64,000 bases of DNA from Ruaniaceae bacterium KH17 (lineage in GTDB: Bacteria; Actinomycetota; Actinomycetes; Actinomycetales; Actinomycetaceae): contig FZQV01000001.1 in assembly GCA_900199505.1 (NCBI GenBank), forward strand, positions 1 through 64,000, in the 5' to 3' direction. The position numbers and the translations under genes were made by a program. The notes beneath the pieces were generated by a model. The model was not told the DNA's origin. It saw only the letters and a program-made list of their open reading frames with translations, and did no database searches. Of this stretch, positions 23,141 to 24,772 are shown piece after piece (positions within the stretch are counted from its first letter, which is position 1; each line of letters starts with the position of its first letter).

Positions 23141-23220
23141 CCGGCCTCGTGCCGCGGACCATTGCCCGGTAGGCTAGAGAGAAATACGGGTTGCCCGGTC
23201 GTCTCGGTAACTGACATTGA

Positions 23221-23282
23221 GTGCTCATGCTGCGAGCACATGAACTTTCACGATCGGCTGCCATTGGCCGATTGAAAGGTTC
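23221..23282 (+). promoter_or_regulatory. Double hairpin in the DEAD-helicase leader that buries the ribosome-binding site
   Basis: Hairpin 1 is GTGCTC pairing with GAGCAC (23221-23226 with 23234-23239). Hairpin 2 runs 23242-23282: GAAC, TTTCA and ATCGGC pair with GCCGAT, TGAAA and GTTC across an 8-nt loop, with a small bulge on each side. The only Shine-Dalgarno-like sequence, GAAAGG (23274-23279), lies inside the descending arm, 5 nt before the ATG. When folded, the ribosome-binding site would be closed. Confidence 0.7.
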
Positions 23283-23284
23283 AC

Positions 23285-24772
23285 ATGACCGCGCTTACAA
23301 CCGAAAATCTGACCGGCATCGTCGCGCACGCGGATGTCGATGAATACGAAGAGGCCCCGAGCCTCGAAGTCTCCGGCGTCACGTTCGCCGATTTCCCGAT
23401 CCGCGAGGAGATCATTGGCGCGCTCAAGGACGTCGGCATCGTGTCCCCGTTCCCGATCCAGGCGATGACCCTGCCAGTGGCGCTCGACCGCCGCGACATC
23501 ATCGGCCAGGCCAAGACCGGGACCGGAAAAACCCTCGGCTTCGGCCTGCCGCTACTCCACAACGTCGTAGCCCCCGGCGAGGACGGCTGGGACGAGCTGC
23601 GCGCTGCCGGCAAGCCCCAAGCCCTCGTGATCGTCCCCACCCGCGAACTCGCGCTGCAGGTGGCCGGCGACCTCGAAACCGCCTCTCGCCGGCGCAACGT
23701 GCGGATCGTGAAGGTCTTCGGCGGCCGCGCCTACGAGCCCCAGGTGGAGGCTCTGCAGAAAGGTGCGGAGGTCGTCGTCGGGACCCCTGGCCGAATGATC
23801 GATCTGATGAAGCACCGCATCCTCGACCTCTCCAAGGTCACGACCGTGGTGCTTGATGAGGCCGACGAGATGCTGGACCTCGGCTTCTTGCCCGACGTCG
23901 AAACCCTCCTTTCGAAGACCCCTGGCACTCGGCAGACCATGCTGTTCTCGGCCACCATGCCGGGCGCCGTCGTGGCCCTGGCGCGCCGCTACATGATCCA
24001 GCCCACGCACATCCGCGCGGCCGATCCGACCGACACCGCGAAGCACGTGGCCTCGGTGACCCAGATCGTCTACCGCGCGCACGCGCTCAACAAGGTGGAG
24101 ATGCTCTCGCGCATCCTGCAGGCGCGCGGCCGTGGCCTCACGATCGTGTTCGCCCGGACCAAGCGCACCGTGGCCCGCGTGGCCGAGGAGCTCACCGAGC
24201 GAGGCTTCGCCGTGGGTGCCATTCACGGCGATCTCGGCCAGGGCGCCCGCGAGCAGGCGCTGCGCGCCTTCCGCAACGGCAAGGTGGACGTGCTCGTTGC
24301 GACCGACGTGGCCGCCCGCGGTATCGACGTGGACGATGTCACGCACGTGATCAACTACCAGTGCCCCGAGGATGACAAGATCTACCTGCACCGCGTGGGC
24401 CGCACCGGACGCGCCGGCAACGCGGGCACCGCGGTCACGTTCGTGGACTGGGACGACACGCCCCGCTGGACGCTGATCAACAAGGCGCTCGGCTTCGGTA
24501 CCCCCGAGCCGGTCGAGACCTACCACACCTCCCCGCACCTCTACACGGACCTGAACATCCCCGAGGATGTCACCGGGCGCCTGCCCCGCTCCGAGCGCAC
24601 CCGCGCCGGTCTCGCGGCCGAGGAGCTTGAGGACGTGGAGGGCAAGCCGAAGCGCCAGAGCTCCGGCAACCGGGACGGCCGTGGTGGCCAGCAGCGCCAG
24701 TCAGACGCCCCTCGCAAGCGCCGCCCACGCCGTCGGACTCGTGGTGGAAACAGCGCCGCTGCAGCGAACTAG
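23285..24772 (+). CDS. DEAD-box RNA helicase
   Basis: This ATP-dependent RNA helicase has 495 aa, likely for ribosome assembly or RNA decay in the cytoplasm. All motifs are present: Q-motif region SPFPIQAMTLPVAL, motif I AKTGTGKT, Ia PTRELA, Ib TPGR, II DEAD (VLDEADEMLDLGF), III SAT and VI HRVGRTGRAG. The C-terminal tail is basic and Gly/Arg-rich (GKPKRQSSGNRDGRGGQQRQ onward), typical of RNA binding. The ATG at 23285 sits behind a structured leader. In other bacteria such helicases are cold-induced or autoregulated through their 5' leader; that is a plausible but untested reading here. The closest mycobacterial counterpart by context is rhlE. Confidence 0.94.
   Translation: MTALTTENLTGIVAHADVDEYEEAPSLEVSGVTFADFPIREEIIGALKDVGIVSPFPIQAMTLPVALDRRDIIGQAKTGTGKTLGFGLPLLHNVVAPGEDGWDELRAAGKPQALVIVPTRELALQVAGDLETASRRRNVRIVKVFGGRAYEPQVEALQKGAEVVVGTPGRMIDLMKHRILDLSKVTTVVLDEADEMLDLGFLPDVETLLSKTPGTRQTMLFSATMPGAVVALARRYMIQPTHIRAADPTDTAKHVASVTQIVYRAHALNKVEMLSRILQARGRGLTIVFARTKRTVARVAEELTERGFAVGAIHGDLGQGAREQALRAFRNGKVDVLVATDVAARGIDVDDVTHVINYQCPEDDKIYLHRVGRTGRAGNAGTAVTFVDWDDTPRWTLINKALGFGTPEPVETYHTSPHLYTDLNIPEDVTGRLPRSERTRAGLAAEELEDVEGKPKRQSSGNRDGRGGQQRQSDAPRKRRPRRRTRGGNSAAAAN

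Follow-up and report, generated by a model that had tools for sequence, protein, structure and literature searches.

A conserved pair of sequence blocks in the leader of an actinobacterial DEAD-box helicase gene and its possible role in a translational switch

Introduction

Is the synthesis of a DEAD-box RNA helicase controlled through the leader of its own mRNA and, if so, by which part of that leader? The question is raised by a locus of Ruaniaceae bacterium KH17, contained in a stretch of 64,000 nucleotides (contig FZQV01000001.1, positions 1 to 64,000 of the forward strand) which we call the window and to which all positions given below refer. A sequence-only reading of this locus had described two hairpins immediately upstream from a helicase gene, the second one hiding the ribosome-binding site, and had considered it possible that the leader is opened by the helicase itself or acts as a temperature switch. 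To our knowledge, the control of DEAD-box helicase levels in bacteria is not well known, and we know of few leader elements of actinobacterial RNA-metabolism genes beyond Actino-pnp.

The analysis described here points to a leader in which two conserved sequence blocks could pair into a stem, P1, competing with the hairpin that covers the Shine-Dalgarno (SD) sequence. The features concerned are collected in Table 1.

Table 1. Features of the helicase gene and its leader in the window.
Feature	Position	Strand	Remarks
Predicted -10 element, TAGGCT, of the helicase promoter	23170-23175	+	From sequence; transcription start expected at about 23181-23184
Block 1, GGTTGCCCGGTCGT	23189-23202	+	Proposed 5' strand of stem P1; just after the predicted promoter
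Hairpin 1 (P2)	23221-23239	+	Within the loop of P1; in relatives varies in sequence and length, sometimes very short
SD-masking hairpin (hairpin 2)	23241-23283	+	Mutually exclusive with P1; counterparts in relatives
Block 2, CACGATCGGCTGCC	23249-23262	+	Proposed 3' strand of P1; also a large part of the SD hairpin's 5' arm
Shine-Dalgarno sequence, GAAAGG	23274-23279	+	From sequence; in the 3' arm of hairpin 2; 5 nt separate it from the ATG (23285)
DEAD-box RNA helicase gene, 495 aa	23285-24772	+	Pfam DEAD 2.2e-45, Helicase_C 1e-32

Results

The helicase gene and its promoter region

The best NCBIfam model for the protein encoded downstream from the leader was CshA, with 413 bits, which is below the cut-off of that model (646). 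Of 145 distinct upstream regions, 99 have a TANNNT sequence 8 to 16 nt ahead of block 1, and the next two intervals of 9 nt farther upstream contain one in 9 and 8 of the 145. Given this enrichment and the -10-like TAGGCT of the window, a transcription start downstream of 23242, with which the leader of the sequence-only reading would not be compatible, appears unlikely.

On the minus strand, a divergent gene of the MiaE_2 family has its own -10-like TAGGCT (23140-23135) 7 nt before its ATG (23127-23125). With so short a distance, the MiaE_2-family mRNA may be leaderless, opposite a structured leader across the same promoter region.

Two hairpins upstream from the helicase gene

Both hairpins of the sequence-only reading were recovered. 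In hairpin 1, GTGCTC (23221-23226) pairs with GAGCAC (23234-23239) to give six pairs and a 7-nt loop, ATGCTGC; its energy was -7.7 kcal/mol (z -1.9), 10 of 200 shuffles were equally good, and taken alone this hairpin could be of chance origin. Hairpin 2 is far beyond chance (-20.6 kcal/mol, z -5.2, none of 200 shuffles as good). It is formed by the pairing of 23241-23248 with 23276-23283 and of 23251-23259 with 23266-23274, leaving a small internal loop and a 6-nt terminal loop, GCCATT; its 17 pairs correct the earlier count of about 15. As had been described, the SD sequence is buried in its 3' arm. For the stretch 23200-23300 as a whole, z was -2.5, with 3 of 200 shuffles as good.

These hairpins could in principle constitute an RNA thermometer, either because the SD hairpin melts when warm or because P1 prevails in the cold. 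DEAD-box helicases are a class that is often cold-induced, and the gene encodes one of them. Two relatives fold in the manner expected: the best fold of L186 is P1 at 10 °C and an SD-masking fold at 37 °C, and in L194 P1 lies above the minimum by 0.4 kcal/mol at 10 °C and by 2.7 kcal/mol at 37 °C. In the window, however, the disadvantage of P1 grows in the cold, from 13.1 kcal/mol at 37 °C to 17.2 kcal/mol at 10 °C, and no common trend was seen among nine leaders: cooling from 37 to 10 °C widened the gap in seven and narrowed it in two. Folding at several temperatures also went against the temperature switch of the sequence-only reading: five of the six SD bases were predicted to be paired from 10 to 50 °C, with unpaired probabilities of at most 0.20, the sixth, A23275, being a bulge. 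We regard a thermometer as quite improbable.

A leader peptide was considered as well. An 11-codon frame, MNFHDRLPLAD (23240-23275), spans the SD hairpin, and a ribosome stalled on it would open the SD sequence. Some relatives have an ATG shortly before block 2, often yielding RDRLP or HDRLP, a likeness that follows from the conservation of block 2 itself. Against attenuation, 37 of 109 distinct leaders lack an ATG, GTG or TTG within the 18 nt before block 2, and the 52 ATGs found (two in some leaders) fall into differing frames (32, 19 and 1) with peptides of differing length and end. Such a mechanism seems to us highly improbable.

A conserved block pair upstream from helicase genes

Upstream sequences were assembled in two sets: a search of 200 family genomes, of which 195 matched, with loci taken from the best 30, one of them being the window; and 80 named loci. 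Scanning with up to 2 and 1 mismatches located the block pair ahead of the orthologous helicase gene at 81 of 112 loci; counted among the 112 are the locus of the window, which has the pair, and two paralogs of the same genome, which do not. The consensus of block 1 is GGNTG[C/A]CCGGTCG, usually located right behind a -10-like TANNNT, and that of block 2 is CGATCGGCTNCC.

The two blocks would form a single stem of 12 pairs with one bulge, and hairpin 1 would sit in its loop. Its outer part consists of two G-C pairs, a variable pair, a U.U mismatch, a G-C pair and a bulged C or A; after the bulge follow C-G, C-G, G-C, G.U, U-A, C-G, G-C and an inner variable pair. The deeply conserved part of the leader is the pair of 23189-23202 with 23249-23262 and not the two hairpins as such. 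The hairpins of the sequence-only reading stand, and its picture missed the main feature, an upstream strand that can compete for the same arm.

In the scanned loci the blocks are separated by anything from 3 to 141 nt, which favours an RNA stem and argues against a DNA site of fixed geometry. The outer variable pair is a standard pair in all of the 107 distinct exact-pattern sequences, drawn from 160 loci (U-G in 67, A-U in 23, C-G in 11 and U-A in 6, after a shift by one position for 11 sequences whose 3' side is a base shorter), and the inner variable pair in 103 of them. Six of the 81 loci (L026, L039, L048, L055, L062 and L074) lie outside this collection, being off the exact pattern or the distance rule; inspected by eye, four of them have a standard outer pair, and L039 and L048 do not. 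The G.U pair is replaced by A-U in L039 and L062.

Alignment A3 comprised 77 of 90 reference sequences; the 13 excluded were mainly those with a shifted register or a very short loop, and L038. In A3, 100% of the cells pair, against 99.5% in shuffles. Most P1 positions are invariant there, which is partly imposed by the search pattern that fixed them. The covariation score was higher than that of all 500 shuffles. When the strands were slid against each other, at most 63.6% of the cells paired; one of these controls reached a covariation score of 0.076, compared with 0.077 for P1, with 59% of its cells paired. Four tree-aware tests, each with too few independent pairs, gave pairs in the expected direction in 2 of 2, about 3 of 5, 0.5 of 4 and 1 of 2 cases (p = 0.5, 0.25, 1 and 1, respectively). 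Without guidance, RNAalifold selected P1 in two of four lineage alignments, Cellulomonas-like (12 pairs) and Arthrobacter (10 pairs), and did not choose it in those of Streptomyces (15 sequences) and Actinomyces (5 sequences).

The sixth base of block 1 (23194 in the window), which is the bulged one, is mostly C, with A in 27 of the 107 distinct sequences, and has changed at least nine times on the tree. Mimicry of rRNA was examined and rejected: neither block occurs within 3 mismatches on either strand of the 16S and 23S loci of the genome, flanks included, where only two shared 8-mers were found.

Distribution of the block pair

Exact patterns with a gap of 31-61 bases matched 76 of 213 family genomes and those with a gap of 1-30 bases matched 30, once in each genome and never both in the same one; the reversed pattern, used as control, gave no match in the 213 genomes. 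Sixty of these 106 matches were retrieved, and all 60 lie upstream of a helicase gene on the same strand. For the other 46, the coordinates agree with those of the helicase search in 41, and the remaining five (G005, G014, G056, G103 and G112) were not comparable. The earlier notion of a structured, SD-covering leader particular to the helicase gene is supported.

A covariance model built from 37 sequences and run on 23 of the 31 loci lacking the pair added three correctly placed matches: L044 (36.4 bits), L069 (18.8 bits) and L061 (13.4 bits; partial, E 0.17). Searching 394 genomes of the class with this model, a search that is insensitive and scored 11 candidates per listed genome, gave matches in 20 genomes, three of them with E < 1e-9, one of which was the window; the genome of the window had this single match. 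The short-gap pattern matched 51 of the 394 genomes. Thirty of these loci were retrieved, 22 with a helicase gene and 8 without, so that class-wide matches of the latter kind look like chance. By the scan, the block pair is missing from loci that include those of Mycobacterium, Amycolatopsis, Frankia and freshwater actinobacteria. The predicted leader RNA is present in many, not all, of the actinobacteria examined.

Competition between P1 and the SD hairpin

Bases 23249-23259 belong to P1 as well as to the SD hairpin, and only one of the two can form at a time. The window RNA ending at 23268 folds as P1 (-24.7 kcal/mol), and the RNA ending at 23287 folds as the SD hairpin; in stability, the P1 fold of the short transcript did not surpass shuffles, of which 90 in 200 were as good (z -0.12). 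Among six near leaders, P1 was the best fold of the short transcript in four (L001, L004, L005 and L006, not L007 and L008). In all six full leaders folded, its predicted probability was 0.0.

At 37 °C the overall minimum in the window, with the SD hairpin, was ahead of P1 by 13.1 kcal/mol, or by 4.4 kcal/mol when block 1 was kept unpaired, so that P1 would need kinetics or a factor in order to stand. The gap between the overall minimum and P1 was about 3 kcal/mol at 37 °C in L032, L186, L191 and L194. Of nine short leaders picked for their SD match, eight had an SD-masking fold as the best one at 37 °C, the exception being L007. An upstream alternative hairpin of block 1, visible in the window fold, is not a general feature: over 82 leaders the mean z was -0.09.

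In several short leaders (for example L191, L032, L004 and the group L195-L202), the bases before block 2 fit the leader's own SD region through lineage-specific bases. SD regions were swapped among 21 dissimilar leaders in which no more than 70 nt separate block 2 from the start: the mean energy was -10.8 kcal/mol with the own SD and -9.1 kcal/mol with swapped ones, a difference that none of 5000 permutations reached (with the window left out, p = 0.0022). At 70-140 nt (20 leaders) the own SD was not favoured (p = 0.65). The distance cut-offs of this test were set after the pairing data had been viewed; L219, L220 and the weak-SD leaders were excluded, 21 of 41 and 20 of 50 leaders were kept after removal of similar ones, and the starts of L011, L053, L080 and L083 are doubtful.

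The nearest relatives differ in this respect. The own SD ranked first of 21 in L004, fourth in L005, fifth in L007 and twelfth in L006; L008, with 84 nt between block 2 and the start, ranked 9 of 20 in the 70-140 nt group. No special SD match was seen in L006 and L008, and the best fold of L007 leaves the SD unmasked. Several lineages with short leaders thus mask the SD with the corresponding arm, each through bases of its own, and L006 and L008, two of the five nearest relatives, do not.

These results bear on the simplest interpretation, namely that static masking of the SD merely lowers translation, without any switching, and that the conserved blocks serve something else. In the window the SD state is by far the stabler one and P1 is not predicted at equilibrium, as this interpretation would have it. 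It leaves unexplained, however, why the promoter-near block 1 complements the very same arm, and we consider it unlikely.

Leaders of Streptomyces

Streptomyces leaders have 3 nt between the blocks, which lie about 180-230 nt ahead of the start, provided that a CTG start is correct. Seven of these loci (L067, L073, L081, L085, L086, L087 and L089) have no in-frame ATG, GTG or TTG before the conserved helicase domain, and a CTG behind a conserved AGAAGAGGCA stretch looks like their start. Between block 2 and the start, Streptomyces leaders such as L073, L075 and L086 contain a second conserved stretch, approximately CTCAGCGGTACGAGCGCTNGAGCGTCGGCAGTGGTCCCG, which may be the output structure of that lineage. 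RNAalifold favours a stem other than P1 in these leaders.

The position of the Streptomyces blocks, together with the lack of an SD match at 70-140 nt, implies that masking of the SD is not the general function of the element. In the lineage of the window, the best reading of the sequences is that the leader RNA would act by masking the SD.

Most P1 positions, including the bulged C or A and the U.U mismatch, hardly vary, which exceeds what base-pairing requires. This constraint, and the persistence of the blocks where the SD is 100-230 nt away and where, as in Streptomyces, they are 3 nt apart, is what would be expected if the block pair were bound by a protein, be it the helicase, a nuclease or a ribosomal protein, that controls transcription, translation or the stability of the mRNA. 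The SD hairpin would then be a separate, lineage-specific brake. The window and other short leaders use the same bases for both structures, which such a separate arrangement would not need. We give this explanation an appreciable chance, well below even.

Discussion

The interpretation that we prefer, with a probability of roughly 0.55, is that the leader works as a two-state translational switch between P1 and the SD hairpin. Early in transcription, block 1 (23189-23202) would pair with block 2 (23249-23262) into P1, with P2 in the loop. As long as P1 stands, the SD hairpin would be blocked and the ribosome-binding site would be open, the ON state. Once the SD region has been transcribed, block 2 and its flank could leave P1 and pair with the SD (23241-23283), closing the gene. 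The likeliest trigger would be feedback: ample helicase, or a partner linked to unwinding, would resolve P1 so that the SD hairpin forms, and when unwinding capacity is short P1 would persist and the helicase gene would be translated. Formation of P1 in cells, its role as the ON state and the exchange between the two states are what we infer from the sequences and predicted folds.

Conservation of the blocks beyond the needs of pairing, and their retention where the SD is distant, suggests that P1 is read by a trans-acting factor. Such a factor may have lineage-specific outputs, by analogy with riboswitches and ribosomal protein leaders. For the control itself, autoregulation by the helicase is a natural candidate.

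A more far-reaching version of the proposed switch, which we put forward as speculative and rather doubtful, would have the helicase sensed through its own substrate. P1 would be a calibrated duplex whose unwinding frees the SD-masking strand and shuts the gene, distant lineages would have kept the sensor and attached other outputs to it, and the whole would constitute a new family of leader RNAs spread over many lineages of actinobacteria. If this were true, the production of helicase would track the unwinding capacity of the cell. Occurring once per genome before one gene wherever the patterns match, the block pair is a defined RNA that could serve as bait in a search for the regulator, and it would allow one to ask directly whether a helicase senses its own activity by way of its mRNA.

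The design proposed here resembles the anti-sequestor/sequestor arrangement of translational riboswitches and ribosomal protein leaders. They have in common a conserved 5' element, one strand of which also takes part in an SD-masking hairpin, and an output that depends on the lineage; the leader of the window differs in having one bulged stem of 12 pairs instead of a multi-helix aptamer, and no known ligand or protein.

Autoregulation of a DEAD-box helicase has been described for CrhR of Synechocystis, with effects on transcript accumulation and protein stability (PMC3485376). The likeness lies in a DEAD-box gene under its own control, partly post-transcriptional; the accessible parts of that report mention no leader stem. 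In actinobacteria, the RNAs targeted by ANTAR proteins are described as two stems with hexanucleotide loops carrying A at position 1 and G at position 4 (PMC8164766), a rule that the two hairpin loops of the window, of 7 and 6 nt, do not fit.

Searches for known families were consistent with an undescribed element. At gathering score, Rfam 15 (4227 families) matched nothing in the whole window other than the tmRNA gene (RF00023) at 97-470 on the minus strand. No match was obtained for 23150-23330 with E up to 5, and the loci of eight relatives, with E up to 1, gave two implausible minus-strand matches (a microRNA and an lncRNA), well under the gathering scores. Among the titles and abstracts listed by searches of the open-licence literature of PubMed Central, none pointed to this motif, and the words 'helicase' and 'dead' do not occur in the accessible main text of the 2010 survey of 104 candidate RNAs (PMC2864571). 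The leader RNA is undescribed in the sense that it was found neither in Rfam 15 nor in these sources, and it belongs with the structured regulatory leaders.

Its closest analogue is Actino-pnp (RF01688), a structured leader RNA of Actinomycetales that Table 1 of the 2010 survey lists as cis-regulatory (PMC2864571). The Actino-pnp model gave no match in the window leader and a match above the family cut-off elsewhere in the same genome (G000:C44:153215-153271, locus L169). An element shared with pnp leaders was looked for and not found: in eight pnp leader loci, model R1 gave nothing convincing, the best E being 0.014 for a partial match located off the leader. The two leaders differ in sequence and structure; what they share is a conserved, structured leader placed before a gene of RNA metabolism.
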